A program made the translations under genes and the position numbers. A stretch of 64,000 nt of DNA. Origin: a virus. The stretch lies in IMG/VR virus record IMGVR_UViG_3300021961_000080, positions 1 through 64,000 of that record. One strand, given 5' to 3'. Under the pieces are notes generated by a model that saw only the letters and a list, made by a program, of their open reading frames with translations, did no database searches and was not told where the DNA came from. Below, in pieces: positions 7,613 to 57,359 of this stretch. The stretch's first letter is position 1. The number at the start of each line of letters is the position of its first letter.

Positions 7613-7873
7613 CTACTCAAAATCTGGCCAGCATCCAGATTTCTCCCATTTTCCATCTGATCGAACTGTCCAATTTTCTGTTAAATTTGAACAAAGATTT
7701 GTTTTGGGATTATTGCCATTCTTTACACTTCCTTTCCATCTTTTAACAGTAGATAAACTAACTTCATAAAGCCTTGCAAATTCCTGATCGGTGAAAATTC
7801 TGCCAACAAAAACTATTTTAGGAATAGTATAGTTTCGATACCATTTAGTATTTTCGTAATCACCTAAAAACAT
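7613..7873 (-). CDS. Small HTH-type protein, paralogue 1 of 3
   Basis: 86 aa, AGGAG before the ATG. Residues 24-50 contain IFTDQEFARLYEVSLSTVKRWK, a helix-turn-helix of MerR/AlpA type with the RRWK-like recognition helix. The C-terminal part has NLCSNLTENWTVRSDGKWEK, a segment shared with the paralogues at 7878-8183 and 8507-8869. Probably DNA-binding; target unknown. Confidence 0.6.
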   Translation of the reverse strand: MFLGDYENTKWYRNYTIPKIVFVGRIFTDQEFARLYEVSLSTVKRWKGSVKNGNNPKTNLCSNLTENWTVRSDGKWEKSGCWPDFE

Positions 7874-7877
7874 TTAT

Positions 7878-8183
7878 CTACTCCTGATTTTTGATTTTAT
7901 TTGAAAGCTCTATAGGGTTTGGTAACGACATTTCTATTCTACCAAAAATTCCTTTGTATTCTGTCTTTTCCCATTTACCATCTTTTCTAATTGTCCAGTT
8001 GTGAGGTAAAGTTGAACAGAGTTTTGTGTTTGGTTGACGACAAGCTTTTATATCTTTTTTCCATCTGCGAATAGTAGTTAAGCTAACGTCGTAAATTTCG
8101 GCAATCTCTTTATCATTAAAAGTTTCACCAGCTTGGATTAAAGCAGGGGTAATATGTGATCGCTTAAAAGATTTTGTCAGCAT
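7878..8183 (-). CDS. Small HTH-type protein, paralogue 2 of 3
   Basis: 101 aa, well-placed AGGAG before the ATG. Residues 15-45 (TFNDKEIAEIYDVSLTTIRRWKK) form the helix-turn-helix, followed by the shared KLCSTLPHNWTIRKDGKWEK block. The combination of an N-terminal HTH and a conserved W-x-I-x-x-D-x-K-W-E motif defines this three-member family. Four bases separate it from the downstream paralogue. Confidence 0.6.
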   Translation of the reverse strand: MLTKSFKRSHITPALIQAGETFNDKEIAEIYDVSLTTIRRWKKDIKACRQPNTKLCSTLPHNWTIRKDGKWEKTEYKGIFGRIEMSLPNPIELSNKIKNQE

Positions 8184-25296: not shown

Positions 25297-26930
25297 TAGG
25301 GATTCTCCGTGTAATCTATCCGAAAACTGATATTAATTAGTCCTGTGATCGAACTAAAGCTAATTCTTAATCTTCCGCCCGCACTAAGAATATTATTAGC
25401 AGTGGCTAATTGATCAGCTAATACCGTAGTGGTACAATTCAAACTATTGAGTCCCGATATATTAGTCGTATCATTTTGAATAGAAATTACGGCACTCCCA
25501 CTACTCAGGGAGTTGATTAGTCCAGAAACTTTATTGATTGTTACTCCTACGGGAAAAGGAGGTAAAGTCAATGTTTTCGGAAAAGATGCTCCTTCAAGCC
25601 TTGGATCATTCGCAATAAGTGCAAAAATAGTAATCGGCCAAGAATCTTCGCTGCTTCCCCCGCCACCAGTTGGTAAATTCTTGATAGCAGAAGCATCTAA
25701 TCGATCACCGCCAGTCAAGGTGGCGAGAGAATCTCTGATTTGAGAAGCTGATAAAACAGGTAAATTAGTTAGTTGACTTCCATCTACTGCGGGTAATTTA
25801 GCGGTATTGTCCAGTCGAATTAGATTGTTAGCTTCGACTCCAATGGGTATTTCAGTGATAGTTCCATTGCCATTGGTGGGCTTACCTAATGCAATATTCC
25901 CGCTATTTGTCTGTTGTAGCTTGGAATAAGTGACAGATTGATTGTCGATAGTCCAAGTCGTACCAGAGTTAGAAACAGTAATATCACCCTTATCACCATC
26001 TGTAACCCCAGTTCCCCCACCCCCAGTAGGTAAATTAGTTAGTTGGCTCCCGTCTATTGCCGGTAGTTTAGCGGCACTATCTAACCTGACAATACTATTG
26101 GCAGTCGTACCAGTTTCTACTGTCCAAGTTGTACCAGAGTTACTAACGGCTACATCACCTTTATCACCATCAGTAACACCAGTAATATTAAGATCATTAA
26201 GCTGTTTTTGAAGTTTACCAAAACCCTGTAAAACGTTGTCAGTAGTGGTTATTGCGCCACCAGTAGTTGTTGACAGTCCAGTTAATACAGTTGTTAAAAC
26301 ATTTGCGGACGGATTGATATTATTAATCTGATTTTGAATCTTACCTAACGAAATTAGCAGCGTATCAGTAGCAGTTATCGCACCTCCAGTAGATGTACTT
26401 AAAGCTGTCAATGGAGTTGATAAAACTTTTGAGAAGAACCCAAAAAACCCTTTAACTCCTGATTCTTTTCCATAGAAAGTATCGTTATTAGGATTCCCTG
26501 CGATTTCATCAGCTTTGGCTACTATTCCCGCAGCACTTCCCCCGTATTCAGCAACAAGCATATCCCCCGCGCCTGTTACTGTCTGCCAGTTTGTACCATT
26601 AAAAAATAAATTATCACCAGAAACAAGGGAGACTTTTATCCCTAGAAAAGGTAGCCAAAATCCCCAATCGCCATTAGGCTGCCCATTTAGCCCAATCAAA
26701 GGAAAGGCTATTTGATTAGTCTTTCCTTCCCATGCTCCGGTGGCTCCCGTGGGAACAATATAATAGCTATCTGGTGTTAATCCAGAAGTTGGGGGAGTTG
26801 TCACGATTCGACTAATTACTGGCACGGAAGCCACCGATGTTAATCGAATCAGTTCGTTTACAAGCTGTTCTTTATACTCCTGAGATGGGTTAAGCATAAA
26901 GCCGTTATTGCCTAATATTTTCCCAGTCAT
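25296..26930 (-). CDS. Tail fibre protein with internal repeats
   Basis: 544 aa from the ATG at 26930 (GAGGAG upstream). It contains repeated blocks: GVTDGDKGD(I/V)(A/T)VSNSGTTWT occurs twice, DGSQLTNLP twice and LSTTTGGAITTTDN-type segments twice, as in many phage fibres. The C-terminal third (from about 430) is a separate beta-rich module with a G-x-S pattern. The gene overlaps the end of the helicase gene by 26 bases, linking DNA metabolism and tail genes in one transcript. Confidence 0.75.
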   Translation of the reverse strand: MTGKILGNNGFMLNPSQEYKEQLVNELIRLTSVASVPVISRIVTTPPTSGLTPDSYYIVPTGATGAWEGKTNQIAFPLIGLNGQPNGDWGFWLPFLGIKVSLVSGDNLFFNGTNWQTVTGAGDMLVAEYGGSAAGIVAKADEIAGNPNNDTFYGKESGVKGFFGFFSKVLSTPLTALSTSTGGAITATDTLLISLGKIQNQINNINPSANVLTTVLTGLSTTTGGAITTTDNVLQGFGKLQKQLNDLNITGVTDGDKGDVAVSNSGTTWTVETGTTANSIVRLDSAAKLPAIDGSQLTNLPTGGGGTGVTDGDKGDITVSNSGTTWTIDNQSVTYSKLQQTNSGNIALGKPTNGNGTITEIPIGVEANNLIRLDNTAKLPAVDGSQLTNLPVLSASQIRDSLATLTGGDRLDASAIKNLPTGGGGSSEDSWPITIFALIANDPRLEGASFPKTLTLPPFPVGVTINKVSGLINSLSSGSAVISIQNDTTNISGLNSLNCTTTVLADQLATANNILSAGGRLRISFSSITGLINISFRIDYTENP

Positions 26931-28728
26931 CTCCAAACTCCTCTATCATCTTGGCTTTTACCCAGTTATTATTTTCAATTTTACAAAGACTTTTCAAGTA
27001 AGTTTCATAACGATTTAAGTCTTCTTTATTATAGTCTTTTTTGAAAATTGCGTGAAGTCTCCACGACTTAGGCGGCATCCAGTCCTTGCTTAATTTAGGA
27101 TTTTTGAATGTTTTGATCATCCATCCCCGGACACTGTCAATATGCTCACCTTTTTTATAAGCTTCTTTGAGAGCGTATTTATAGGCTAGGTATAATTCTC
27201 TATCTCTATCGTGAATTATGATTTCTAATCTTTCGTTGGCTATTTGTTTCTTTTCTTTTGTTGGAAATTCGTAACCACAGTGAGGGCAAATACGAGCGGA
27301 AGCATAAGTGATTTTACCGCAATTTTCGCACTCTTTAATCGGAGCCTGTCCTTTTTGAGTATCGGAAGATGTAGAAAGCTTGGGATAGTCCACATCTTCG
27401 ATAAATCCGTGTTCCGTCACGTTCCCCGCTTGATCTAATACCAAACAGTCAATTTTATCTAGCCAGCTACAGAGTCTTTGACCCCGACCAGTCATTTGAA
27501 TATAAAGAGTCCGGCTTTTAGTCGGTCTGGCATGGATAATACAAGAAATTGCAGGTAAGTTAAATCCGATCCCGCAAGTGTTAATATTTACAATTCCCCG
27601 CAATCTTAATTCAGCTACTTTTCTGAATATTTCTCTTCTTTCCTGTTCTGGTGTTTCAGCCGTGATAATAGCCGTGGGAACACCCCTTTTATTAAATTCT
27701 GTACAGAGGCTTTTTGCGTGTTCTACACCCGCAGCGAAGCAAACAAATTGTCTCCCTTGACCGAGCCTACGATACTCGGAAACCGTTGATTTTACCGCTT
27801 CTAGGCAACGAATTTCTAGCTGACTAACATCAAAATCACCGCCATTGATTTTTACTCCTTTAGTATTGATTTTATTTTTAGTACCAAAATAAACACAACC
27901 AACAAGCGCACCCTGTTCAATCATTTCTTTGGGAGTAGGACCAGTTACCTGAACCTCAAAAATATCTCCTAACTCCTCTCTTTTTGACAAACGCCACGGA
28001 GTTGCTGTTAGACCAATTACGAGACGATTATCTACTGGTAGGGTTTTTCCCGAAAAAAGATGCTGTTGCTTACGAATCACTTCCCATGCTGAGTTTATCT
28101 CTTGTAAAGTTTCCTTTGATTCAGCGTGAATTAGGCTAAGATGTTTGTATTTTTCCTTAGCTTCATCAAAAGTGATTTTGTAGGGTTCTAAGTCTTCTCT
28201 TTCTACGGCAATCCCTAATACTGCTAATTCATCACGAATATCTTTAATTGAGGTTGTTTGTTTACCATTTTTAAGATTTGGGAAGTTATCTTTAAACCAC
28301 TGACAATAAGCTGATAAATGCACTTCATCAGCTAGTATTACTTCGGGATTGAACCAACTCAAGTCGCGCCCTCTAGACAAGGTTTGCGTTGTTGCAATTT
28401 GAACTAACTGACTTCTATCTTCTTTATAACCACCAGCAATTACTCCGGCAGTTAATCCAAATTTTGCTAATGTTTCTAGAGTCTGTTCTATGAGTACCGT
28501 AAAGGGTACTACAATTAAAGTCCGTCGCTGTCTTTTTACTGCGGCATCATAGATTATTTGACAGAAAAATACTGTTTTTCCCCATCCGCAAGGGGCAACT
28601 ACTAAGGCTCTTTTATGGATTTTTAGAGCATCATACAGTTCTCTTTTAAGAGCTTTTTGGTCGTCTCTTAATTGAATTTGTGGTTTAGTCGGTACGAAAA
28701 GTGTTTGTGTTTGTAGTGTTAGTGTCAT
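26905..28728 (-). CDS. SF2 DEAD/DEAH-like helicase with C-terminal zinc ribbon
   Basis: 607 aa. Walker A PCGWGKT near residues 46-52, Walker B ILADEVHLS near 130, motif III GLTATPWR, and motif VI QMTGRGQRL. A zinc ribbon follows near 465-485 (CENCGKITYA, ICPHCGYEF). An insert of about 50 residues between motifs II and III is unusual. The architecture is that of type III restriction or UvsW-like DNA helicases; no nuclease domain is present, so a role in replication, recombination or repair is expected. It precedes fibre genes in the operon. Confidence 0.85.
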   Translation of the reverse strand: MTLTLQTQTLFVPTKPQIQLRDDQKALKRELYDALKIHKRALVVAPCGWGKTVFFCQIIYDAAVKRQRRTLIVVPFTVLIEQTLETLAKFGLTAGVIAGGYKEDRSQLVQIATTQTLSRGRDLSWFNPEVILADEVHLSAYCQWFKDNFPNLKNGKQTTSIKDIRDELAVLGIAVEREDLEPYKITFDEAKEKYKHLSLIHAESKETLQEINSAWEVIRKQQHLFSGKTLPVDNRLVIGLTATPWRLSKREELGDIFEVQVTGPTPKEMIEQGALVGCVYFGTKNKINTKGVKINGGDFDVSQLEIRCLEAVKSTVSEYRRLGQGRQFVCFAAGVEHAKSLCTEFNKRGVPTAIITAETPEQERREIFRKVAELRLRGIVNINTCGIGFNLPAISCIIHARPTKSRTLYIQMTGRGQRLCSWLDKIDCLVLDQAGNVTEHGFIEDVDYPKLSTSSDTQKGQAPIKECENCGKITYASARICPHCGYEFPTKEKKQIANERLEIIIHDRDRELYLAYKYALKEAYKKGEHIDSVRGWMIKTFKNPKLSKDWMPPKSWRLHAIFKKDYNKEDLNRYETYLKSLCKIENNNWVKAKMIEEFGDDWENIRQ

Positions 28729-28742
28729 GTTTTTATTTGAGA

Positions 28743-29201
28743 TTATATTTTGGTTTCAATGAAATCTATAGTCACTCGCAATTGACTATCTTTTTTAGCT
28801 TTCCTAGACGAGTCTATTTTGGGCTGCATCTCATTTTCAATAAAATCTGAGATAGGTTTCATTATTTTTTTTGCTTCTGCGAGTAAAGTATCTAAGTTTT
28901 TACCGTCTCCTTGTATTTTTTTTCTGTTTGATTTTATCTCAACCCAACTAAAGCAAGGAATCCGATCAGGTTCTAAAGCGAAACATTCTACTGTAACTAT
29001 TAATTTTTTAGAATATTTATTTTGAAACTCAATCCACATCTTGCATTCATATTGCCCTAGACATTGACAAAACATACGCAGTGTTCCTTGTAGATAGGAG
29101 AATCCGTCTTCTGTTTTTATTTGCCATTCCGAGCAATTAGACTGACTAAAAGTTTCTTTACAGAAAACTTCAATTTGTTTTAATGCTTCTGTTTTGTTCA
29201 T
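28743..29201 (-). CDS. Array paralogue A1, unknown function
   Basis: 152 aa. Family features: helix with IEVFC near residues 10-14, S-E-W-Q segment near 23, a beta-rich middle, and a C-terminal helix ending in ISDFIENEMQ. Member of the tandem family at 28743-33970, here at its downstream end and relatively diverged. The helix-beta-helix plan with an aromatic-rich first third is common to all members. No signal peptide or membrane segment. Confidence 0.6.
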   Translation of the reverse strand: MNKTEALKQIEVFCKETFSQSNCSEWQIKTEDGFSYLQGTLRMFCQCLGQYECKMWIEFQNKYSKKLIVTVECFALEPDRIPCFSWVEIKSNRKKIQGDGKNLDTLLAEAKKIMKPISDFIENEMQPKIDSSRKAKKDSQLRVTIDFIETKI

Positions 29202-29205
29202 TGTT

Positions 29206-29688
29206 TTAACAGGTAATCGTTTTGATGAAATTTGATATAGCCTCTACTATTTCGTCTGTTTTATCACAGATAAAATCAATCTCATTTTGTTTATCAGGGT
29301 TCTCAACGTCACTGTAAAGTGATTCATGGTAACTAAACCCTATATATTTATATATTTCTTTTATTTGCCCTGTTCTTAAGTCAAATATTCTACTTTTCAC
29401 TTTGACTGCTGGTAAATCATCAGAATCTCGGTAATGACACATGACTTTAATATGGGCTATTGTTTGCTTGTCTAAAAGAACCTTAGCATTACCTATTAAG
29501 TGAATTTGTTCATCAAATTTTAATTGCCATTCCGACCAAAGAAGGCTTTTAAACGCCCAACTGTTCCAGTCGGAATTGTTGTTATATTCTTTGTAACAAA
29601 AAGCCGCAATCTTTTGTAGTATTCTTGCTTTTCTCGAGCGCTCCATAGCTTCTAGTTTTTTAAAAAACTCTTCTGCTGTTATTGTCAT
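29206..29688 (-). CDS. Array paralogue A2, unknown function
   Basis: 160 aa. Starts with a longer charged helix (EEFFKKLEAMERSRKARILQK), then the family motif IAAFCYKEY and WNSWAFKS, and ends EIVEAISNFIKTI. More diverged than the central members. The upstream gene overlaps it by four bases (ATGA), so translation is coupled. Confidence 0.55.
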   Translation of the reverse strand: MTITAEEFFKKLEAMERSRKARILQKIAAFCYKEYNNNSDWNSWAFKSLLWSEWQLKFDEQIHLIGNAKVLLDKQTIAHIKVMCHYRDSDDLPAVKVKSRIFDLRTGQIKEIYKYIGFSYHESLYSDVENPDKQNEIDFICDKTDEIVEAISNFIKTITC

Positions 29689-30062
29689 AGTGTCACCTCG
29701 GTTTGTATTTCATTTTTGATAAACTGAAAAATATCAATCATAATCTGTGTTCCTTTTTTACGCCATAGATTTAATTCTTCATGTTTAGCGGTTCCACTTT
29801 TCTTGAATGAGATTTTACTGTTTTTTCTGTCATTTATCCATACAAGAAAACTTCCTTCCCAATCTAAATTAGAAATAGTAGATCGACCTTCTATATAATT
29901 TCTAAAATCATTAGTAAACTTTATATCTATCCATATAGACTTAGGGCGATACCCGTAAATCATGTCTTGAGTTCTGCTTAAAGACGTAAATGACCACTTT
30001 AGCTCTGGGTAAGTTTTTTGGCAGAAATTGAATATTTTTGTGGTTACTTCTGTTATATTCAT
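29685..30062 (-). CDS. Array paralogue A3, nearly identical ends to A6
   Basis: 125 aa. N-terminal TYPELKWSFTSLSRTQDMI and the C-terminal 70 residues (DFRNYIEGRST onward) are almost identical to the member at 30852-31277, while the part between differs in length and sequence. It shares the ATGA junction and the noncoded motif GTGACACTATGA with its neighbours. Suggests recent duplication followed by change or recombination in the middle. Confidence 0.6.
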   Translation of the reverse strand: MNITEVTTKIFNFCQKTYPELKWSFTSLSRTQDMIYGYRPKSIWIDIKFTNDFRNYIEGRSTISNLDWEGSFLVWINDRKNSKISFKKSGTAKHEELNLWRKKGTQIMIDIFQFIKNEIQTEVTL

Positions 30063-30439
30063 AGTGTCACCTGAGATTGTATTTCAATTTCGATAAAGTC
30101 AAAAATGCTTGACAGTATTTCTTTGGCTTTTACAAATAAATCTGTTGACGTATCAAATTCTTTTTTTGATTTAAAAGAAAATTGAGTTCCTGTTCTGTCT
30201 AACCAAATCTTGAAAGAACCAGTCCATATTTCTGTACTAGAAATAAATGCACTTATATCTCCTAATACAACGTGACTTTCTAATCGCGTCCCGATAATCT
30301 CTATGCCTATATCAATTCCAGTTGTTTCACCCCAAATACGGGAAGTTAAATCTGTGTAATTTATCTGTTCCCAATTTATTTCTGAGTAACGGTCTTTGCA
30401 AAAATTGAATATTTTTTGAGTTGTTTCTGTTATATTCAT
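30059..30439 (-). CDS. Array paralogue A4, unknown function
   Basis: 126 aa. Opens MNITETTQKIFNFCKDRYSEINWEQ, with the family pattern I-F-x-F-C-x4-Y-x3-W, and ends with DFIEIEIQSQVTL. Middle differs from A3 and A5. Four-base overlaps at both ends, with the shared GTGACACTATGA junction. Confidence 0.6.
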   Translation of the reverse strand: MNITETTQKIFNFCKDRYSEINWEQINYTDLTSRIWGETTGIDIGIEIIGTRLESHVVLGDISAFISSTEIWTGSFKIWLDRTGTQFSFKSKKEFDTSTDLFVKAKEILSSIFDFIEIEIQSQVTL

Positions 30440-30855
30440 AGTGTCACCTCGGATTGTATTTCATGTTCAATAAATGAAAGAATGTCAATCATAATCTGTG
30501 TCCCTTTTTCACACCATAAGTTTAGTTCTTCATGCTGACATATTCCATCTCCTTTAAACAAAATTTCATTATTTTTTTCTTGGTTTACCCATGCCGTAAA
30601 AACTCCTTCCCATGCTAAACGATCTATAGTGCAATAACCTTTTATTAAGCCAACTTGCAAATTACTCGGATCGTGACTAATAATGTCTATGTATATTTTT
30701 ATAGTAAGTATTCCTAGTCTAGTAAAAAAAGCTTTACATCCATAAATACACGGTTCCCCATTTCGTCCAGTCCAACTATCATCATCCCATCTTAAATCGG
30801 GATGATTTTTCTGACAAAAATCTAATATTTTTGTGGTTACTTCTGTTATGTTCAT
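30436..30855 (-). CDS. Array paralogue A5, unknown function
   Basis: 139 aa. Starts MNITEVTTKILDFCQKNHP and ends HEELNLWCEKGTQIMIDIL-SFIEHEIQSEVTL, the latter almost shared with A3 and A6. The central part (residues 28-75) is unique, with cysteines and a GRNGEPCIYG loop. Illustrates the conserved-ends, variable-middle pattern of this array. Confidence 0.6.
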   Translation of the reverse strand: MNITEVTTKILDFCQKNHPDLRWDDDSWTGRNGEPCIYGCKAFFTRLGILTIKIYIDIISHDPSNLQVGLIKGYCTIDRLAWEGVFTAWVNQEKNNEILFKGDGICQHEELNLWCEKGTQIMIDILSFIEHEIQSEVTL

Positions 30856-31277
30856 AGTGTCACCTCGGTTTGTATTTCATTTTTGATAAACTCAAAAATA
30901 TCAATCATAATCTGTGTCCCTTTTTCACACCATAGATTTAACTCTTCGTGTTTAGCGGTTCCACTTTTCTTGAATGAGATTTGACTGTTTTTTCTGTCAT
31001 TTATCCATACAAGAAAACTTCCTTCCCAATCTAAATTAGAAATAGTAGATCGACCTTCTATATAATTTCTAAAATCGCTAGGTGAACCGTCACTGCTATA
31101 AGAGTTGTTACTATTGACCCTTATATCTATTTGTATTCCATTTATAGAATTAAGAATAGGGCGATACCCGTAAATCATGTCTTGAGTTCTGTCTAAAGAC
31201 GTAAATGACCACTTTAGCTCTGGGTAAGTTTTTTGGCAGAAACCTAATATTTTTTGGGCTGTTTCTTGTTTGTTCAT
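30852..31277 (-). CDS. Array paralogue A6, nearly identical ends to A3
   Basis: 141 aa from the ATG at 31277; a TTG start further out would overlap the next gene. N-terminal MNKQETAQKILGFCQKTYP and the C-terminal 75 residues match A3 closely. A longer S/N-rich loop (residues 45-65, INGIQIDIRVNSNNSYSSDG) replaces the short loop of A3. Unknown function. Confidence 0.6.
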   Translation of the reverse strand: MNKQETAQKILGFCQKTYPELKWSFTSLDRTQDMIYGYRPILNSINGIQIDIRVNSNNSYSSDGSPSDFRNYIEGRSTISNLDWEGSFLVWINDRKNSQISFKKSGTAKHEELNLWCEKGTQIMIDIFEFIKNEIQTEVTL

Positions 31278-31281
31278 AATT

Positions 31282-31761
31282 TTAACTTTTAACCTCAACT
31301 ATTTTGCAAAACCTTAAAATAGTCTCCATTATCTTTATTGCCTCTGGAACCAAAATATTGAACTCTTCTTTGTTTCCGCTTGGATAAAGATTATATCTTG
31401 AGTTGCAGTCTGGTGTTTCGTTATAACCGTATATCCAACTTAAGGCAACCAAAGACCCGCCTAACGTACCTTCTATTGTGATTTTTTCAAGGCATTTGTC
31501 TACTAATTGATATTCAGTCGAAATTTCTCGACATTCAATCAAAACTTCATACTTTTTACATTTTATTAACTTACCATAAGTTTTGTAAAGATAATCCTCT
31601 TTAATTATCAAAGTTCCTATTAAACGAATACATTTATCGTCTGCAACTGTATCCCATTCTGAGATGTCCACTGTATCGTATTCGGAGATGGTCATCTGCT
31701 CAAAAGTTTTTTTAAAGAAATCTCTGATTTCTTTAAGTGACTTTTCTTTTAATACTTCCAT
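31282..31761 (-). CDS. Array paralogue A7, diverged
   Basis: 159 aa. Begins MEVLKEKSLKEIRDFFKKTF, keeping the amphipathic first helix but with FF in place of FC. A beta-rich centre follows, and it ends ILVPEAIKIMETILRFCKIVE. A fragment homologous to its C-terminus lies at 32109-32207, showing past duplication. No known domain. Confidence 0.55.
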   Translation of the reverse strand: MEVLKEKSLKEIRDFFKKTFEQMTISEYDTVDISEWDTVADDKCIRLIGTLIIKEDYLYKTYGKLIKCKKYEVLIECREISTEYQLVDKCLEKITIEGTLGGSLVALSWIYGYNETPDCNSRYNLYPSGNKEEFNILVPEAIKIMETILRFCKIVEVKS

Positions 31762-31771
31762 TGTTTTTACC

Positions 31772-32104
31772 TCAAATACAAATAACTAGATCACCGACAC
31801 AAACATTGATAAATTTCTCACAATCGTATCGAGAATTATTACAAGCTTGAATAATAGAAGTATTTTCCTCAATAGAAATAACCATCCCTGATCCCTTATA
31901 AAGGATACGATGACCAATAAAGTCTCTAGTTATTGGGTCGTATATTGGGTTGTTTGTAATTGAATAAACCAGATGAGAGTCATTTATTCTCATACGATTT
32001 AATTCGCCACGGTTTATTACTACTTTAAAATCATCGATAACTTCAATTACCTTAGCTGGATACGTTCCTTTAGTCGGAAGTCCTAGCTCCTCGTCTGTTG
32101 TCAT
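31772..32104 (-). CDS. Small beta-barrel-like protein inside the paralogue array
   Basis: 110 aa, not a member of the surrounding family. Sequence is beta-rich with TYPAKVIEVIDDFKVVINRG, then YDPITRDFIGHRILYKGSG and MVISIEENTSII, suggesting a small SH3- or OB-like barrel. No catalytic residues stand out. It may be an insertion in the array or a functional partner. Confidence 0.5.
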   Translation of the reverse strand: MTTDEELGLPTKGTYPAKVIEVIDDFKVVINRGELNRMRINDSHLVYSITNNPIYDPITRDFIGHRILYKGSGMVISIEENTSIIQACNNSRYDCEKFINVCVGDLVICI

Positions 32105-32108
32105 TGTT

Positions 32109-32207
32109 TTAAGTGCCTGTAGCCTCAGTTGTTTTAATAAAGCCTAAAATAGTCTCCATTATCTTTGTCGCTTCTGGAATTAAGATATTTAAGATTTCGT
32201 TGTCCCC
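32109..32207 (-). pseudogene. Remnant of an array paralogue (C-terminal fragment)
   Basis: An open stretch of 32 codons reads DNEILNILIPEATKIMETIL-GFIKTTE, clearly homologous to the C-terminus of A7 (NILVPEAIKIMETILRF). No start codon or N-terminal part is present. It marks a deletion of a former family member. Confidence 0.65.
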
Positions 32208-32255
32208 CTCACTTTTTGGCTCTTTTTTAATCTGTTACTCCTATTGGGTGAAATT

Positions 32256-32278
32256 ACTAGACAGATATTTTGTCTAGT
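32256..32278. repeat. Intergenic hairpin repeat, copy 1
   Basis: Inverted repeat ACTAGACA...TGTCTAGT with a 7-nt loop, in front of a paralogue array boundary. The same hairpin with nearly the same flanks (GGTGAA(A/C)TTACTAG) recurs at 33542-33564, and a degenerate form lies near 33980. Confidence 0.7.
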
Positions 32279-32285
32279 AGTGTTT

Positions 32286-32648
32286 TCATTCTTGAATCTC
32301 ATCAAGAATGAAAGTGAAGATGTCTAGCATTACTTTTCGGGTTTCTCTGTATTTGTTGTCAAAATAATCGCATTTTGACTTTCTAATATAATCAAAGAAT
32401 ATTTTATTTTCATAAGAACGGTTATTGTCTCTATCGTCAGGGTTTATCCATAATTCAAATGTGCCTACATAATACGCTTCACATAAAACACGCTTAAGCA
32501 AGCCATCCAGAAAAACCTCTATTATTAATTCATCAGGAAAAAGTGGACACTGAATTATATTATTTTCAGGGTCAAGATTCCATCTTAAATTTGGATAACT
32601 TCTGTGACAGAATTCCAATATTTTCTCTGTTATTTGTTTTATGTCCAT
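32286..32648 (-). CDS. Array paralogue B1, unknown function
   Basis: 120 aa. Opens MDIKQITEKILEFCHRSYPNLRWN, with family motif FC-x2-(S/Y)YP-x-L-x-W, and ends VMLDIFTFILDEIQE. Contains PLFPDELIIEVFLDG in the middle. Belongs to the second sub-cluster of four (32286-33970) whose C-termini all read I(F/L)xFIxxEIQE. Confidence 0.6.
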   Translation of the reverse strand: MDIKQITEKILEFCHRSYPNLRWNLDPENNIIQCPLFPDELIIEVFLDGLLKRVLCEAYYVGTFELWINPDDRDNNRSYENKIFFDYIRKSKCDYFDNKYRETRKVMLDIFTFILDEIQE

Positions 32649-32663
32649 TGGTGTTGCTCCTAT

Positions 32664-33071
32664 TTATTCTTGAATTTCGTTAGCAATAAAATTGAAAATA
32701 CCTAGCATCACTTCTCGATATTTTTTGTACAAGTCCCAGTCTTTTTTATCCCACTCTTTTGTTATTGGGAGACTACGAAAATCTATTTTTTTGTCACAAT
32801 TTAGATGAATACCAAACATCCCCAACCAACCTACATTAACTAGGTCAAAGTGTCCGATTATATAATCATCGGTAGTTTCTTCTTTATAAGAAGAAACATC
32901 ATTTCTTTTGTCTGAGCAAATTTTTAGAGTTACTTTAAACAGAGAATCTACTCCACAAATTACAGTTTTATTTGTACATTCACTATTTAATTTATCTACA
33001 TTCCACTCTAAATCTGGGTATTGATTTAAGCAATAACCTGATATTTTGTAAGCTATTAGTTGTATCTCCAT
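32664..33071 (-). CDS. Array paralogue B2, unknown function
   Basis: 135 aa, ATG at 33071 (a GTG lies one codon further out). N-terminal IQLIAYKISGYCLNQYPDLEWN and C-terminal VMLGIFNFIANEIQE follow the family. The centre (VICGVDSLFKVTLKICSD) aligns with B3, showing these two are closer relatives. Confidence 0.6.
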   Translation of the reverse strand: MEIQLIAYKISGYCLNQYPDLEWNVDKLNSECTNKTVICGVDSLFKVTLKICSDKRNDVSSYKEETTDDYIIGHFDLVNVGWLGMFGIHLNCDKKIDFRSLPITKEWDKKDWDLYKKYREVMLGIFNFIANEIQE

Positions 33072-33086
33072 CACTGTTACTCCTGT

Positions 33087-33515
33087 CTATTCTTGAATTT
33101 CATCTTCAATAAAATTAAAGATTTCTCTCACCATTTTTCTGGCTTTTTTTACTAAAAGCCAGCTATCATCATTCCAATCGTCATGAGTAGCAAGCATAAG
33201 CTCTAATTCGCTGTCTTTGTTATGGTTTAACTTAACCTCAAAACTACCCGACCAGAAAAGTAGAGATTTTTCTTCTGATTGAGGTATTAGAAGCGACCCC
33301 AATATATAATCGTAAGTAGCTTCTTTTTCGTAAAACTCTTGTTTTTCATCTGAGCAAATTTCTAGCTCTAATTTAAATAAAGAGCAAGAGCCAAGAATAA
33401 GTGCGACAACGTTATAGTTATTTTTATGGCTGTCAAAATAGTTACAGTTCCAGCCTAAATCTGAATAACTTTGGCAGAAATTAAATAATTTTTCTGTCAC
33501 TTGTTTTGTATCCAT
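33087..33515 (-). CDS. Array paralogue B3, unknown function
   Basis: 142 aa. VTEKLFNFCQSYSDLGWN at the start, ALILGSCSLFKLELEICSD in the middle (cf. B2), FWSGSFEVKLNHN, and the C-terminus MVREIFNFIEDEIQE. Soluble, acidic. Same operon and orientation as the rest of the array. Confidence 0.6.
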   Translation of the reverse strand: MDTKQVTEKLFNFCQSYSDLGWNCNYFDSHKNNYNVVALILGSCSLFKLELEICSDEKQEFYEKEATYDYILGSLLIPQSEEKSLLFWSGSFEVKLNHNKDSELELMLATHDDWNDDSWLLVKKARKMVREIFNFIEDEIQE

Positions 33516-33541
33516 TGATTTTACTCCTATTAGGTGAACTT

Positions 33542-33564
33542 ACTAGACAGATATTCTGTCTAGT
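33542..33564. repeat. Intergenic hairpin repeat, copy 2
   Basis: ACTAGACAG and CTGTCTAGT pair around the loop ATATT. Same element and flanks as at 32256-32278, again between an array gene and the ribosome-binding site of its upstream neighbour. Could mark recombination joints or be an RNA-processing site. Confidence 0.7.
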
Positions 33565-33571
33565 ATTGTTT

Positions 33572-33970
33572 TTACTCTTGAATCTCATTAAGGATGAAAT
33601 TGAAAATGTCTAGCATTACTTTTCGGCATTGACTAGCTAATTTCCAATGTTCTGCACTCCATAGTTCATGTTTATAATAGGCAAGATTCTCAAAAACTAT
33701 ATAGTCTTCATACCGATAGCTCATGTCTTCGATGGGAGGATTTATCCAAATTTTAAACTTTCCTATTTGGTTATCTTGCCACTCAACACACTTGAGTTGT
33801 CCGTCTAATCCCGACCAAATACCGTATTTAATCTTTATGCTGTCATCAGAAAAAGTTAAGCATTGAATGATTTTATAGTCATTATCTGTAAAATCAAAAT
33901 TCCAGTCTAAATCTGGGTATTTTTCTTCACAGAAATTTAGTATCTTTTCTGCTATTTGTTGTGTGTCCAT
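33572..33970 (-). CDS. Array paralogue B4, unknown function
   Basis: 132 aa. First gene (5'-most) of the array. IAEKILNFCEEKYPDLDWNFD, then KIIQCLTFSDDSIKIKYGI (cf. B1), KFKIWINPP, and the terminal VMLDIFNFILNEIQE. The conserved FC...YPDL.W start and EIQE end are clearest here. Confidence 0.6.
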   Translation of the reverse strand: MDTQQIAEKILNFCEEKYPDLDWNFDFTDNDYKIIQCLTFSDDSIKIKYGIWSGLDGQLKCVEWQDNQIGKFKIWINPPIEDMSYRYEDYIVFENLAYYKHELWSAEHWKLASQCRKVMLDIFNFILNEIQE

Positions 33971-33995: not shown

Positions 33996-34148
33996 CTAGG
34001 AAATACCTACTGTTTCTTCTACTACGATACTGTGATGACCGTTGCGACTTAGAGCTTCTAAATAAGAAGCTAATCGACTCGCGTGCATAGATGTTTTAAT
34101 CTTGCAAGGCTTGTTTTTTCCATCTATTGTTCTAATTGTGTATCGCAT
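33996..34148 (-). CDS. Small basic protein, unknown
   Basis: 50 aa from the ATG at 34148. Sequence MRYTIRTIDGKNKPCKIKTS, then MHASRLASYLEALSRNGH, looks like a compact beta-helix domain. Neat packing between neighbouring genes (3 bases to the next gene's stop) supports translation. Confidence 0.5.
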   Translation of the reverse strand: MRYTIRTIDGKNKPCKIKTSMHASRLASYLEALSRNGHHSIVVEETVGIS

Positions 34149-34151
34149 CTG

Positions 34152-34310
34152 CTATCTCCAATTTTTTGAATTTTGCCTGCAATAATCTAAATGCGCCTTA
34201 AGTCTTTTGGCAGACTTTTGTTCATCTGTTCCTCTAATAAGTCCTTTGTTCTTATCAATGTCATCCTGACTTGATAATTTAGCCCATGCTTTCTTTTTTT
34301 CTTCTGTCAT
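34152..34310 (-). CDS. Small charged protein, unknown
   Basis: 52 aa from the ATG at 34310, two bases after the stop of the upstream gene. Highly charged (MTEEKKKAWAKLSSQDDIDK). Continues the chain of very small cotranscribed genes 33996-34501. Confidence 0.5.
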   Translation of the reverse strand: MTEEKKKAWAKLSSQDDIDKNKGLIRGTDEQKSAKRLKAHLDYCRQNSKNWR

Positions 34311-34312
34311 AA

Positions 34313-34501
34313 TTACACCTTTACTGTTTCAAGTCCACGCTGTTCTAAGATTTTATTATACTCTTTGATTTTCGAGTATAAAACCTCTCGTTTTTGTTGT
34401 GCGGTTTCCCCAGATTCTTGCTTAGAACTTCGATATTGTCCCGCGTAAAAATTAGCGTAATAACTAATTTTAGCAGTGTCTATATTTGCAACAAGCTTCA
34501 T
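34313..34501 (-). CDS. Small protein, unknown
   Basis: 62 aa, GGAG upstream of the ATG. Contains KISYYANFYAGQYRSSKQESG and a C-terminal amphipathic helix. No family recognised. Located upstream of the array genes in the same direction. Confidence 0.5.
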   Translation of the reverse strand: MKLVANIDTAKISYYANFYAGQYRSSKQESGETAQQKREVLYSKIKEYNKILEQRGLETVKV

Positions 34502-34581: not shown

Positions 34582-34824
34582 TCATATGTATAAAGCATAC
34601 ATATAAATTGGGTCAGGATTATCTGGTGGTTCATACATTTGATCGTAGGCAGCCTCAATGTCAGAATCTTCAATGTCACCATTAATTAAATGGTCAATCA
34701 AAATAGCAGCCATGTTTTCAGCTTCTTCTTTGGTTAATTGAAGGCCTAAGTCACTCCAATGATCAGTTGCATACTCAAGAATGTATTTAACTAATTCATC
34801 GACTTTATCTTGCAATTTACTCAC
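34582..34824 (-). CDS. Small acidic helical protein, unknown
   Basis: 80 aa with a GTG start behind a perfect GGAGG. Contains LQLTKEEAENMAAILIDHLINGDIEDSDIEAAYDQM, two or three amphipathic helices. It has its own strong promoter at 34851-34879 and so begins the transcript that runs into the paralogue array. Confidence 0.55.
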   Translation of the reverse strand: MSKLQDKVDELVKYILEYATDHWSDLGLQLTKEEAENMAAILIDHLINGDIEDSDIEAAYDQMYEPPDNPDPIYMYALYI

Positions 34825-34850: not shown

Positions 34851-34879
34851 ATCTTACATTATTCTACTAGAATTGTCAA
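34851..34879 (-). promoter_or_regulatory. Leftward promoter upstream of the paralogue array
   Basis: Minus strand TTGACA (34879-34874), 17-bp spacer, TAAGAT (34856-34851), with the shared TTGACAATTCTAGTAG extension. Expected start is near 34844. Confidence 0.8.
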
Positions 34880-35322: not shown

Positions 35323-38208
35323 TCAGGTACTTATATCCTGTAGATAACAGTTAGAAAATGGAATTGTAAAAGCGATCACAGACCCATTTAAGATAGTTTC
35401 TACCCTCAAAAGCCATTGATTGTCAAAAGTCACTTCGATAACTTTTCCGACTGCTCTTGGTGGGATAGTTCGCTCTCCTATCTCTATAGATGCACCCGTT
35501 CGCACTAATACCCTTTCTTTTTCAAGATCAGGAAGACTATCAATGTGTACACCATCAGCCGAGAACTCATCGACTGGCTCCGATTCAACTTCTACTATCT
35601 CAGGGTTAGAGATCGGTTCATTTTTTGGAGTAGGAGTGGGAATCTGGACAATTTCCTCTTTTATTTCTGATTGATATTCCAGAGATTCGGGTTCTTCTAT
35701 CTCAAAAGCTTCTAATTCTTTTGGCTCTTGATAGCGCAGTATCATGCCCCTTGATTTGACCTCTAATCGTCCATAGCCAGCTTGTTCTAACTGAGTAAGT
35801 AGGGTGCGGGCAATAGAGGTGTTTACTTTTTCCCCGTTAATTTTACGCCCGCCGAATTTTTGGGCAACTTCCCGGGGTTTAATCTGTCCTGCGCTTTTGA
35901 CAATCTCCCATATCTCGGATAAGATTCCCTGTACCGGATTCTCATCCTGAGAAGTAACCCCTTGAATTGTCAAGAATTGACTGATATAGAAGTCAGTCAT
36001 CTTAGCAGCTTTTTTAGCTGTTTGTACTGGTATTTTATAGAGGTCGGTATTATCTGGATCAAATATCCAGTTCAATAGATGGATTGCCAGAGTAAGCCTT
36101 AAGAAAGTCTTCATCTGTTTCCCTATATAAGAAGCAAATGATGGATTAATCGCCCGATACTTTTTGATAAGCATCTCGTAATGATACTTAATACCGAAGG
36201 CATAATCCTCTCCAGTTTCGGTAAACCAACAATTATAAGGATCGACGATTCCATCTTCATCAGCTTCTAGATTAATCCCGCTGATTTGATTGATAATATT
36301 TTGGATGCACTCTTGAATCGAGTTAGGGTCTTCTGGCGGTCTCCCACGTTGAGGATCGAGGGGTTCATGCAATAGGAAAAGAAACCGAGAAACCAATCCA
36401 TCTACATCATTAGATAGGTCTAAGTATTTTTGTACTTTCTGTATCTGTATCCCACCTAATATATTGATAGTTTGCCCATTCAGGAAATAGCGATTTTCCT
36501 CTTTTACCCTATCAAAAGTATTTTGTACTGGATCATTCCAAGATGATAATAATCGTTGCCGGTCATTACCTTTACCGCCCGACCGGTATTGATTTAAGCC
36601 TTCAAATAATCCCGTTAACTCATCCGCTACCCACACCCCACCTTGCCAACGAGGTTGAGTGGACATCGTTTTCAGGACACCATCGAAAGTTCCTTCGTCA
36701 TAAAACCAGCGACGGGATTGACAGTTTTCTTTTTCGTAAAGACTAGGATTTACTTCAGCGTTTTCTTTGTGTATGCTACGCTCTTCGCGGGTCATTTCTG
36801 CCCATTCTGCTTTTAATTCTTTTAGCCTAGCTTGCTTTTTAGAGAGCCTTTCTAACTCATCTAAGTCCTTTCTTTTTAATACCTTGTAAATTTCTTTTTG
36901 AGTAGTAGTTTTCCCACTACTTACACCACCAGCATCAGCACAATAAAAAATCGGGTATTCTTTCCAGCACTCCCTTTCCCTTGCAGTAGTTCGGAGGTTA
37001 ACTGCAAATCGACTACCTAAGATAGCCCCTAATATTGGCCATAGGGAGTGTAGCAATCGGATTGGGGGCTGGTTAAGTGTTCTGGCGCGGGATATGATTG
37101 CCTCAGCTAAAGGTTGGGGTAATATTTGAAAAAGATCAATCTCTTTTTTCTGATAATGCTTACCCCTTAAAAAACCCTCTAATCCTGTTTTAATAGCGTC
37201 CCCTTCCGCTATTTCTGTTTTACGAATTTCGATTAAATGCCGTATTTCTGTTGGCTTTTTACCAGTGGCTTTTGCCCATAAATCGACTTTTTCTTGCCAT
37301 TGGGTTCTAGTGATTTCCTCTTGTCCAATACAGCCGTCAATGGCTGTTATTAAGTCTTGGAAAGTCATAGTTTCTGTTACTGTGACTTCCTTCTCTTTTT
37401 TCTCCTTTACTTCTTTTGGTTTGTCAACTATCGAGGCTAATAGTTCTTTAAGATCAATTTTCTTTTCCTCAATCCAGTTGATGATATCTACCCCCTGAGA
37501 ATCTGGCAAGTGATTCCATATAAGAGAGTCTGGATAGGCATAAAGCCATTTTGCTTCTGGGAAATCTTGATAAATTTTCTGGCAGTGAGCTACTCCCCCT
37601 TTGTCACGGTCCGGGCATAAAACTAATTTTGCTCCCTTTAAAGCTTCTGTGTGAGACGGTTGCCATTTCTTTGATCCGCCTATATTGCAAGTGGCAACTA
37701 ATCCAAAAGATTCAAGCTTTTCTACTTTAGTCTCACCCTCGACTATATAAATCGGAGTTCCTTCCTTGATAGCCTTTTCTAGGCGATCTGCGTGGTAAAG
37801 AGGTATATTTTTGTACTCAATATCACCTATGCCCCACTTCCAGTTTTTACCATTATCTGTAGAGTGCTGTTGTTTTATATCCTTTTTCCAAATACCATCT
37901 TCTTTGTAATCCTTCCGGTACACACGGACTCTCACCCCATTGGCAAGAGGGGGATAAAGGAAGTATTGGGTTTTTTCTTCTTTATAGGCAGAAAATTTGA
38001 CTTCTTTTTTAAGATAGTAGAGCGGTGTACCCTCACTATCTACTTTGCTCGATTTTTCCCATCCTGGTGCGGGGTCATAGTTTCGTTTGCAGACTGAGAT
38101 GGTATTGCCGTCATCGGCTACATACATATAGCACCAATCGGGCTTGCCACAGTGGGGGCAAGGATTGTTTTTGTCGATCTTGACACGGTTAGAGTTTTGT
38201 GTTACCAT
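35323..38208 (-). CDS. Primase-helicase-like replication protein (zinc finger, TOPRIM, DUF3987-like)
   Basis: 961 aa. Zinc finger CPHCGKPDWC near residues 17-26; TOPRIM-like domain about 150-230 with IYIVEGETKVEKL and VLCPDRDKGG; DUF3987-like ATPase from about 360 with Walker A GGVSSGKTTTQ near 425 and WVADELTGLFEGL as Walker B region. Residues 860-900 are a proline/glutamate linker, and a small beta-domain closes the protein. Such proteins serve plasmid and phage replication initiation. It has its own upstream promoter and a long leader. Confidence 0.8.
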   Translation of the reverse strand: MVTQNSNRVKIDKNNPCPHCGKPDWCYMYVADDGNTISVCKRNYDPAPGWEKSSKVDSEGTPLYYLKKEVKFSAYKEEKTQYFLYPPLANGVRVRVYRKDYKEDGIWKKDIKQQHSTDNGKNWKWGIGDIEYKNIPLYHADRLEKAIKEGTPIYIVEGETKVEKLESFGLVATCNIGGSKKWQPSHTEALKGAKLVLCPDRDKGGVAHCQKIYQDFPEAKWLYAYPDSLIWNHLPDSQGVDIINWIEEKKIDLKELLASIVDKPKEVKEKKEKEVTVTETMTFQDLITAIDGCIGQEEITRTQWQEKVDLWAKATGKKPTEIRHLIEIRKTEIAEGDAIKTGLEGFLRGKHYQKKEIDLFQILPQPLAEAIISRARTLNQPPIRLLHSLWPILGAILGSRFAVNLRTTARERECWKEYPIFYCADAGGVSSGKTTTQKEIYKVLKRKDLDELERLSKKQARLKELKAEWAEMTREERSIHKENAEVNPSLYEKENCQSRRWFYDEGTFDGVLKTMSTQPRWQGGVWVADELTGLFEGLNQYRSGGKGNDRQRLLSSWNDPVQNTFDRVKEENRYFLNGQTINILGGIQIQKVQKYLDLSNDVDGLVSRFLFLLHEPLDPQRGRPPEDPNSIQECIQNIINQISGINLEADEDGIVDPYNCWFTETGEDYAFGIKYHYEMLIKKYRAINPSFASYIGKQMKTFLRLTLAIHLLNWIFDPDNTDLYKIPVQTAKKAAKMTDFYISQFLTIQGVTSQDENPVQGILSEIWEIVKSAGQIKPREVAQKFGGRKINGEKVNTSIARTLLTQLEQAGYGRLEVKSRGMILRYQEPKELEAFEIEEPESLEYQSEIKEEIVQIPTPTPKNEPISNPEIVEVESEPVDEFSADGVHIDSLPDLEKERVLVRTGASIEIGERTIPPRAVGKVIEVTFDNQWLLRVETILNGSVIAFTIPFSNCYLQDIST

Positions 38209-40408: not shown

Positions 40409-41470
40409 TTAACTCAATCTTTCTACAAAATCAATGACTTTTCCCCATAACTCTTTAGGGAAATCTACGGTCATTGTATTATCGCTTGTTTGCCTTGCGT
40501 TCCCCTCGTTTACTAGAGTGATTAGCAGACCCTTAGCCTCTTTAGCTTTGGGAGGAAGTTTAATTGGTTTTGGCTCTAATTCGTCGCTGGGTTTTACACT
40601 TCCATCAGAGTCTAGAAAACTTGGATTCTTAGACTCTATAAAGTTGGCTGTTATCGATTGAACCAATTCTCCAGTGGCTTTTATTCCTTTTTCTTCTGCT
40701 ATAGCTACAGTCTCCAAAAGGACATTTTCTTTCTCTGAAAGTGTTAGTTCATTTTTCCTCACAAGGTTGTGTAAAGTCGTTTCGGATACCTTACCTTCGA
40801 TTGCTTTTAATGTCGAAGCAGACATCGAAGAAATCTCTAGAGTTCGATCATATTCTGATTGTTTCCATCCTGTTTTTTTGCAAAACTGTTGACGGGATTC
40901 GTCTTCGGTGAAACCTTCTAATCTGTCCTCGTGTAAATGTCTTTTAATCAATTTCGCCTTGTCATACACCGATAGTTTTTCGCTGTCAGTGCCGTAACTT
41001 AGCATTTGATACTCTAAGTCCCGGACGGTCAGACCTGCTACTAGAGGCTTAATAATCGCCGAAACATTAGGAACAATAATCCCTCGAGAGGCTAAAAGTA
41101 ACCAAGCTAATACCCTTCGATGCCCGTCCATAGGAAACAATCTATCACCGTCCGCAATTAAGTGCAAGGGTTGATGGATTACTCCTGATGCTAGTATCCT
41201 GTCAGCTAATTCTTGAATCAAATCCAAATCGTAGGCGATACGGGTATTCCATCCGTTTTCGCCAGAAATAGACTCAATTAGGTCTTGACTAAAGGTTAAG
41301 GGAGTTTCGTTAGGTAGGACGTGCATTTTGCGGTCGTCATACAGTCCTATCCTCGGACCGATGAAGTCACGATTGGCTAACCTGAAAGAAATTAGTCGAG
41401 GATCAACTACGATTAATTCTCCCCGTGCAGAGCCGTAAGCTCTGATTTTGTCTCTTGAATTTGTACTCAT
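40409..41470 (-). CDS. ParB/Srx-fold protein
   Basis: 353 aa. Residues 70-150 carry the ParB-like core: LQELADRI-type helix, VIHQPLHLIADGDRLFPMDGHRRVLAWL, with DGHRR matching the G-x-RR nucleotide-binding signature. Residues 165-215 form a helix-turn-helix (EDESRQQFCKKTGWKQSEYDRTLEI). The N-terminal 65 residues are an extra beta-rich part. It may act in partition, transcription control or as a nuclease; no ParA gene is next to it. Confidence 0.7.
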   Translation of the reverse strand: MSTNSRDKIRAYGSARGELIVVDPRLISFRLANRDFIGPRIGLYDDRKMHVLPNETPLTFSQDLIESISGENGWNTRIAYDLDLIQELADRILASGVIHQPLHLIADGDRLFPMDGHRRVLAWLLLASRGIIVPNVSAIIKPLVAGLTVRDLEYQMLSYGTDSEKLSVYDKAKLIKRHLHEDRLEGFTEDESRQQFCKKTGWKQSEYDRTLEISSMSASTLKAIEGKVSETTLHNLVRKNELTLSEKENVLLETVAIAEEKGIKATGELVQSITANFIESKNPSFLDSDGSVKPSDELEPKPIKLPPKAKEAKGLLITLVNEGNARQTSDNTMTVDFPKELWGKVIDFVERLS

Positions 41471-45609: not shown

Positions 45610-45638
45610 TTGATATTCATGGGAGAATGATCTAAGAT
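45610..45638 (+). promoter_or_regulatory. Rightward promoter
   Basis: TTGATA (45610-45615), 17-bp spacer, TAAGAT (45633-45638). ATTCTCC (45597) and GGAGAAT (45622) form an inverted repeat around the -35, a possible operator. It drives the gene at 45672. Confidence 0.6.
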
Positions 45639-45671: not shown

Positions 45672-46100
45672 ATGACTAATCTGCAATTTAAACTAGCTCA
45701 GCTAAATAAAACTAAGCTTTTCTGCAAAGACCTTTATCCAGGTGATTGGTGGATTAATACAAGCCATGAACGGGAATCTTTTGGCGTTCAGATATTAATC
45801 GGAAATGTTAAAGATCATGATCATTCTTTTCAAGTATTTATCGATAGCGATTTTAATGTTAGCATTGAAGGCTCTTTACTATATCACGGGTGTGATGCTT
45901 GGGTTGAAATTAGTTCAAACGAACAAGAAATAGGATTTGAGATAGAGACTATCATCGAAGATGATAACTATTTAGAAAAACTACGAAAAGATTTAACCAA
46001 CTTGATTCCTAAAATTAATGAAATGGTAGATGTCATTTCAGAATTTACCGAACAATTCAGCAGGAAAAATTTAGATGAAAAAAGTACCTGTTATTCCTGA
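45672..46100 (+). CDS. Distant relative of the tandem array family
   Basis: 142 aa. KLFCKDLYPGDWWIN near residues 16-29 mirrors the FC...YP...W start of the array proteins at 28743-33970, and the end has a long helix (LIPKINEMVDVISEFTEQF) in the same place. The acidic centre differs. It is on the + strand with its own promoter, thus a relocated and separately regulated family member. Confidence 0.55.
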   Translation: MTNLQFKLAQLNKTKLFCKDLYPGDWWINTSHERESFGVQILIGNVKDHDHSFQVFIDSDFNVSIEGSLLYHGCDAWVEISSNEQEIGFEIETIIEDDNYLEKLRKDLTNLIPKINEMVDVISEFTEQFSRKNLDEKSTCYS

Positions 46101-56924: not shown

Positions 56925-57359
56925 CTAAGATTTTACCACTCCCGAAACAGGTACTCGATAAACCAGTACAGGTGGGTACTCATGGATATAGGTTTTAATC
57001 ACGCCATTTATTGAGTCGGCGTGAATATATTCCCCGTCGCCCAAATAGATGCCCACATGACCATTTATGCCTGATTTGCGAAAGACTAAAACATCTCCCT
57101 TGTCTAGACTACCTTCTACTCTTATCAGAATACTCTCAATAAATCTCACTAAGAAGTTGTTCCTAGGAATGCGTTCGTAGTTTTCGATGATGAAATCGTA
57201 GGGTAAGAATCCGACTTTAATCCCCACGCCAGCGATAAATCCTACGCAATCGGTTCCAATACCTTTGAGGGATTGACCATGAAACCAGGGAGTACCAAGC
57301 CACTCGATAGCCTCGGTAACAATTTGATTAGCTAAAGAATCGTTTTTTAGTTCGTTCAT
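56925..57359 (-). CDS. NlpC/P60 cell-wall peptidase of tail tip (GTA gp14-like)
   Basis: 144 aa. Catalytic Cys38 in GTDCVGF, His101 in INGHVGIYL and H113 in YIHADS. AIEWLGTPWFHGQSLKGIG is the standard beginning of the family domain. No signal peptide: it is delivered with the tail, cleaving peptidoglycan cross-links during DNA entry. It starts inside the end of the tape measure gene (32-base overlap), the usual neighbour order. Confidence 0.9.
   Translation of the reverse strand: MNELKNDSLANQIVTEAIEWLGTPWFHGQSLKGIGTDCVGFIAGVGIKVGFLPYDFIIENYERIPRNNFLVRFIESILIRVEGSLDKGDVLVFRKSGINGHVGIYLGDGEYIHADSINGVIKTYIHEYPPVLVYRVPVSGVVKS

Follow-up and report, generated by a model that had tools for sequence, protein, structure and literature searches.

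Viral clusters of anti-CRISPR and other anti-defense genes, such as the paralogue-rich families of archaeal rudiviruses, often mix unrelated families, and the immunity-protein arrays of bacterial toxin systems consist of small alpha/beta binding proteins. The locus analyzed here is a tandem array of paralogous genes at positions 28743-33970 of a 64,000-base stretch of viral DNA (the window, positions 1-64,000 of the 67,154-base IMG/VR record IMGVR_UViG_3300021961_000080). It resembles the anti-defense clusters in that its products are small virus-specific proteins whose genes are clustered, variable between relatives and horizontally exchanged, but all its members belong to a single family, divided into many classes whose order is fixed, and inhibition is putative in this case. 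TipC-type and contact-dependent growth inhibition (CDI) immunity genes pair with a toxin, whereas this array lies in a phage, and its neighbors are a primase, a helicase and small uncharacterized open reading frames (ORFs), with no toxin partner. New here are both a protein family and a form of phage accessory-gene repertoire; no published description of the array was found, in literature coverage that misses many journals. The interpretation that we favor, tentatively, is that the array belongs to a horizontally shuffled repertoire of small soluble binding proteins, each class of which would act against a patchily distributed factor of the cyanobacterium Microcystis, most likely a component of its defenses.

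An initial annotation of the window had reported about eleven tandem paralogues of 120-160 amino acids (aa) without a known domain, and profile searches and hhalign comparisons confirm this description. All 11 array ORFs were recovered by an iterated profile search (73-123 bits, with E values of 1e-20 to 1e-35, for the matches in the window), and hhalign gives the array members E values of 6e-21 or better, compared with 0.02 or worse for the other window ORFs of 90-350 aa apart from one at 45672-46100. The latter had been proposed as a distant member, and against a profile built without it, it reaches E 8e-7 with two orthologues and 2e-5 alone. HMMER alone is weak here (the orthologues score 0.012), but the distant membership stands because hhalign separates this ORF from the unrelated ORFs of the window, the next best of which is at 0.02. 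The 11 ORFs and a decayed twelfth make up one previously undescribed protein family. The shared opening noted initially, I-x-x-F-C-x(4)-YP-x-L-x-W, is found in most members, while the ending, I-F-x-F-I-x-x-E-I-Q, is looser in the members at 31282, 29206 and 28743.

Profile searches of Pfam, PHROGs, NCBIfam, PADLOC and PDB sequences gave no significant match to a known family; no library dedicated to anti-defense proteins was searched. Matches to PADLOC restriction enzymes (best 0.0012, in 1-4 of 72 members) were scattered and were treated as chance. Rfam gave nothing, and no relatives were found in cellular genomes (two degenerate scans) or in plasmids. Clear relatives by fold are limited to two uncharacterized viral proteins of UniProt and BFVD, A0A510E8K8 (120 aa) and A0A510E8I6 (126 aa), which belong to the same family by both fold and sequence (Foldseek against the class E member: E 6.7e-9 with 44% identity, and E 6.2e-5 with 26% identity, respectively) but carry neither name nor function in the tables consulted.

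The structure of the family was predicted with AlphaFold2. The first model, of the class E member, reached a predicted local distance difference test score (pLDDT) of 69, and the model of class J copy 2 (29685; 65 sequences) reached a pLDDT of 90.1 and a predicted template modeling score of 0.85. The latter model consists of a helix (residues 3-17), six antiparallel strands (22-87) and a long helix (95-122). Several strands alternate hydrophobic with variable polar positions, as would fit a sheet with one buried face. The prediction thus yields a confident fold, but no decisive relative in the PDB, where Foldseek found nothing below E 0.05. The KA1, StART-like and Mam33-p32 folds likewise combine a helix, an antiparallel sheet and a C-terminal helix, and KA1, StART-like and similar arrangements lead the VIA-align comparison at Z values up to 7.2, a range that the tool itself notes as unspecific (Z under 8); these folds have no sequence match in the profile comparison with PDB sequences, and their Foldseek E values are at least 0.05. 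TipC2 was the top PDB match of the first model, at E 0.18 only, and has a Z of 5.4 among many ties with the second; for TipC-type and CDI immunity proteins taken together, the Foldseek E values are 0.18 and 0.37, with VIA-align Z values of 4.5-5.4 among unrelated ties. None of these fold matches reaches a level that would indicate kinship. The conserved positions (F13, C14, W23, I111, F114 and I115) are mainly core-like, few conserved positions are polar, and no catalytic set is obvious. A binder rather than an enzyme is suggested because the conserved positions mostly form a hydrophobic core and few are polar. The proteins look soluble by prediction, with only class D showing a hydrophobic stretch, and that a marginal one (Kyte-Doolittle score 1.74), and since their genes also lie among replication genes, the receptors suggested initially as targets are unlikely. 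DNA mimicry was rejected as a family trait, since many classes are acidic (isoelectric points of 4.3-5.4) yet classes C and J have a median near 8.

Relatives were collected from IMG/VR scans (about 70 contigs, labeled with L-numbers), and isolates were added. Single-link clustering at 58% identity divides the members into 16 classes, which are about 15-45% identical to each other. Nearly everywhere a class occurs at most once per array, the exceptions being the two J members of the window, two A members in L011, and fragments. The complete arrays with the same flanking genes, primase and helicase (n=30), hold 3-11 full-length members in 22 combinations, the window's array being the largest. 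Class order agrees in 473 of 497 ordered pairs (95.2%), compared with a mean of 65% and a maximum of 70% in 500 shufflings. Because the order is conserved while the subsets differ, each island can be regarded as a selection from one ordered list that the phages have in common. The array is therefore mostly not a fresh amplification in place: its classes are old and distinct, each phage holds a subset, the members are exchanged, and only class J is doubled in the window. Truncated members and remnants are common among the arrays. The 33-codon remnant that the initial annotation took as a sign of repeated gain and loss is real, and its frame matches the C-terminus of class I genes that are intact in L051, L012, L049 and other contigs, with 88% DNA identity to L012:2600-2703; the gain and loss is borne out by the arrays of 3-11 members, the truncated genes and the empty sites in relatives.

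This pattern of presence and subsets is the one expected for proteins that face variable targets, as had been proposed. It bears on an alternative in which the members are modulators of host takeover, each class binding a different housekeeping protein (of transcription, translation, photosynthesis or cell division) and the subsets following differences between host strains. Small soluble proteins encoded beside replication genes, with few conserved polar positions suggestive of an enzyme and confined to phages as far as searched, would suit that role; housekeeping targets, however, are common to all strains, which would not readily account for the 22 combinations of 3-11 members or for phages without the family, so that we consider takeover unlikely.

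The module has evidently been exchanged among three phage backbones. Six MaMV/LMM01-like myoviruses (L018, L011, L025, L012, L055 and L056) carry the same classes together with the small ORFs found upstream of the window's array and a 110-aa ORF found within it. The first MaMV site lies between genes matching MaMV-CH02 117R and 118L, which in Ma-LMM01 are separated by only about 100 bp, and the content of a second site varies, with classes A, H and B in isolates, J in L060 and A in L046. L058, which is 94% identical to the siphovirus Mic1, has J as its sole member, in a gap that corresponds to positions 7821-7941 of Mic1, which has no member there. DNA coverage outside the member genes served as a check on the backbone calls, those for L010, L014 and L044 resting on less than 1 kb of such DNA. 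In a tree of 200 members, made by a quick method that leaves some class joins unsure, the backbones interleave; 23 backbone changes are needed, 14 of them forced by well supported branches. Measured against the window, classes A, B, E, J, L, M and N have a median synonymous divergence (dS) of 0.12-0.31, compared with 0.64-0.89 for four flanking backbone genes and 0.37 for the 110-aa ORF. Low dS relative to the flanking genes and the interleaved tree show frequent exchange between phages, and classes C, D and G, with dS of 0.47-0.82, appear to have moved less than the other seven. The locus is in this respect of the anti-defense type, being accessory, variable and passed between phages that have one host, if the window's predicted host is accepted. 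In the window, 54447-55430 matches the MaMV-like contig L055 beside that contig's array (76-82% DNA identity) and is a candidate exchanged segment.

On either side of a central indel, the DNA of the window's two J copies is 91% identical, and the start of copy 2 resembles that of its neighbor N; these mosaic copies read as direct traces of recombination. Synonymous differences (pS) are lower at the 5' gene end (0.53, compared with 0.69 in mid-gene), and over all pairs there is no such drop at the 3' end. Homogenization at gene ends is only partly supported, because the drop is mild and limited to the 5' end.

Exchange between unrelated phages of one host could also favor weapons of phage against phage, in which members, through superinfection exclusion or interference, would block competitors within one cell and spread among Microcystis phages for that reason. 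Most window members have no clear membrane stretch of the kind typical of entry-block proteins, and nothing points to a phage target; this alternative is improbable. The single insertions bear on a further proposal, that the members assemble into one hetero-oligomer or virion part of varying make-up; in its favor, the tight gene packing suggests coordinated expression. A single class suffices in the Mic1-like L058 and the MaMV-like L060 and L046, and there is no match to structural PHROG families beyond one tail-protein match (E 0.077, one member only), which leaves such an assembly highly improbable.

Among the isolates, members are found in MaMV-CH01, -CH02, -DL01, -DL02 and -DH01 (three each in -CH02 and -DH01), where they are annotated as hypothetical proteins. 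MaMV-CH02 148L-150L and their counterparts in the other four are family members of classes A, H and B in a row. This set differs from the window's array in its size of three genes and in its place in the genome, next to a series of tiny ORFs. These tiny ORFs form a second tandem array adjoining A-H-B (L008:104-5568, about 144.0-149.5 kb of MaMV-CH02), with about 25 mutually matching ORFs of 51-99 aa and the pattern MKIINxNNWAPRNK...FYYRL...DEDN. The last of them ends in LILNEIQE, resembling the C-terminus of the paralogue family; no relatives of the tiny ORFs were found among the window ORFs.

Selection on the members is relaxed yet still purifying. The median ratio of nonsynonymous to synonymous change (dN/dS) is 0.23-0.57 per class, compared with 0.05-0.12 in the primase, helicase, ParB-like and 38732 genes, as expected of proteins that are kept but tolerate far more change than their neighbors. 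These values weigh against the possibility that the locus is a recombination hotspot, which gathers near-neutral genes by duplication and unequal exchange with no selection for variety. Common truncated members and remnants, the mosaic J copies and palindromes at junctions would all be natural at a hotspot, but dN/dS of 0.2-0.6 indicates that the proteins are kept, class order is conserved and the single members inserted in other backbones are intact, so that this explanation is decidedly improbable.

Under the favored interpretation, that of a shuffled repertoire of binding proteins, the array genes would be co-transcribed early or midway through infection, beside the replication genes, and each class would bind and inhibit one particular host protein rather than act as an enzyme. 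Defense genes generally vary between strains. In Microcystis, antiviral defense genes are reported to be remarkably numerous and diverse (PMC5852275). Components of these systems are favored as the putative targets because the host is rich in them, because they differ between strains, and because unrelated phages of a common host exchange the array genes. Subsets would then be selected by what local hosts carry, a patchy distribution of defenses among strains would explain why they differ, and phages that infect a cell together would produce new subsets when they recombine homologously at conserved gene ends and at stretches between genes. The most specific form of this idea, a combinatorial counter-defense kit in which a new scaffold provides at least 16 stable classes, each matched to one Microcystis defense component, and ordered subsets are drawn by co-infecting phages through recombination at fixed gene boundaries, is possible but rather unlikely.

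Several observations weigh against a role in counter-defense. No known defense or anti-defense family was matched in the five libraries listed above. Positive selection was not seen (dN/dS is below 1), and the signature of a molecular arms race was not found. Diversifying selection on the exposed sheet face is not supported, since exposed helix positions vary more (0.202, compared with 0.154). With no sign of positive selection and no focus of within-class variation on that face, variety is held mainly as the presence or absence of classes rather than as fast change within them. The assignment of the window's lineage to Microcystis is itself a probable one that rests on common genes. MaMV-DC gave no family match with four different members as query, and both it and MaMV-DH01 infect M. 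aeruginosa FACHB-524 (PMC9927357, PMC12542629), as do the member-carrying MaMV-CH and -DL phages. Because phages with and without members infect this strain, members are not generally needed on it and do not act as a simple host-range switch.

If the counter-defense interpretation is true, the genes of the island, read in order, amount to a set of ready probes for the many uncharacterized defense systems of Microcystis, which is a major former of toxic blooms, and inhibitors built on one scaffold can pass between phages as an entire repertoire. Even without a function, an undescribed family comes with a natural experiment, in that closely related isolates differ in whether they carry it at a given site, which makes its role directly testable.

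Table 1. Coordinates of the array and associated features in the window (bits are from the iterative profile search; class letters are from the single-link clustering)
Feature	Position	Strand	Remarks
Helicase gene	26905-28728		one flank of array
Class C member	28743-29201	-	152 aa; 112 bits
Class G member	29206-29688	-	160 aa; 84 bits
Class J copy 2	29685-30062	-	125 aa; 106 bits; mosaic of copy 1 and N-like 5' end
Class M member	30059-30439	-	126 aa; 74 bits
Class N member	30436-30855	-	139 aa; 99 bits; ATGA overlaps with neighbors
Class J copy 1	30852-31277	-	141 aa from better start, ATG at 31277; 122 bits
Class B member	31282-31761	-	159 aa; 102 bits; 80% identical gene in MaMV-CH02
110-aa non-member ORF within array	31772-32104	-	same place in most arrays
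Remnant, class I 3' end	32109-32207	-	frame readable to about 32226, without start codon
Palindrome, second copy	32257-32277		between class A and remnant
Class A member	32286-32648	-	120 aa; 119 bits; class also in MaMV phages L008/L009
Class L member	32664-33074	-	136 aa; GTG start or ATG at second codon; 103 bits
Class D member	33087-33515	-	142 aa; 123 bits
Palindrome CTAGACAGATATTCTGTCTAG (CTAGACA...TGTCTAG)	33543-33563		between classes E and D; hairpin z -3.3
Class E member	33572-33970	-	132 aa; 122 bits; AlphaFold2 pLDDT 69
Small ORFs upstream of array	33996-34148, 34152-34310, 34313-34501, 34582-34824	-	several carried with array into MaMV-like phages
Promoter-like site TTGACA-17-TAAGAT	34851-34879	-	ahead of small ORFs and array; consensus match only
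Primase/helicase gene	35323-38208		other flank of array
Distant member outside array	45672-46100	+	142 aa; orthologues in L095, L096

Between the primase and helicase genes, all on the minus strand, lie the small ORFs and then the 11 paralogues with the one foreign ORF of 110 aa (Table 1). The array junctions are short, four being 4-base ATGA overlaps and two more 4-base gaps, and such tight co-directional packing is the usual look of a single transcript. The 110-aa ORF has no hhalign match to the family profile and no match to known families or phage records; in most phages it stays between the two halves of the array, and it moves with the array. The upstream region of small ORFs is 83% identical in DNA over 616 bp in the MaMV-like L018 and L011.

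Matches to the promoter consensus are overall near chance for the array-side site (44, compared with 38.3 expected). The promoter that the initial annotation assigned to the distant member is likewise a consensus match and nothing beyond it (TTGATA-17-TAAGAT at 45610-45638), in a region whose total is at chance (9, compared with 8.0). The palindrome of Table 1 occurs in 25 intergenic copies at 23 loci, always ahead of a D, A, L or O gene where the next gene is present. A function as array terminator was ruled out, since its T-run sits on the opposite strand; its possible roles are those of operator, antisense terminator and recombination joint.

Patches of window DNA at 85-93% identity match Microcystis phages only, and the window presumably represents a lineage with no cultured member in the collection, because no close isolate was found there for its primase. 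Other large genes of the window encode tail proteins, ribonucleotide reductase, thymidylate synthase, a ParB-like partition protein (40409-41470; PHROG 1033, E 9e-7) and a tape-measure-like protein (57328-63963; 2211 aa) that contains an endolysin/metallo-endopeptidase-like region. Phage-like plasmids of Microcystis have been reported (PMC12510456).

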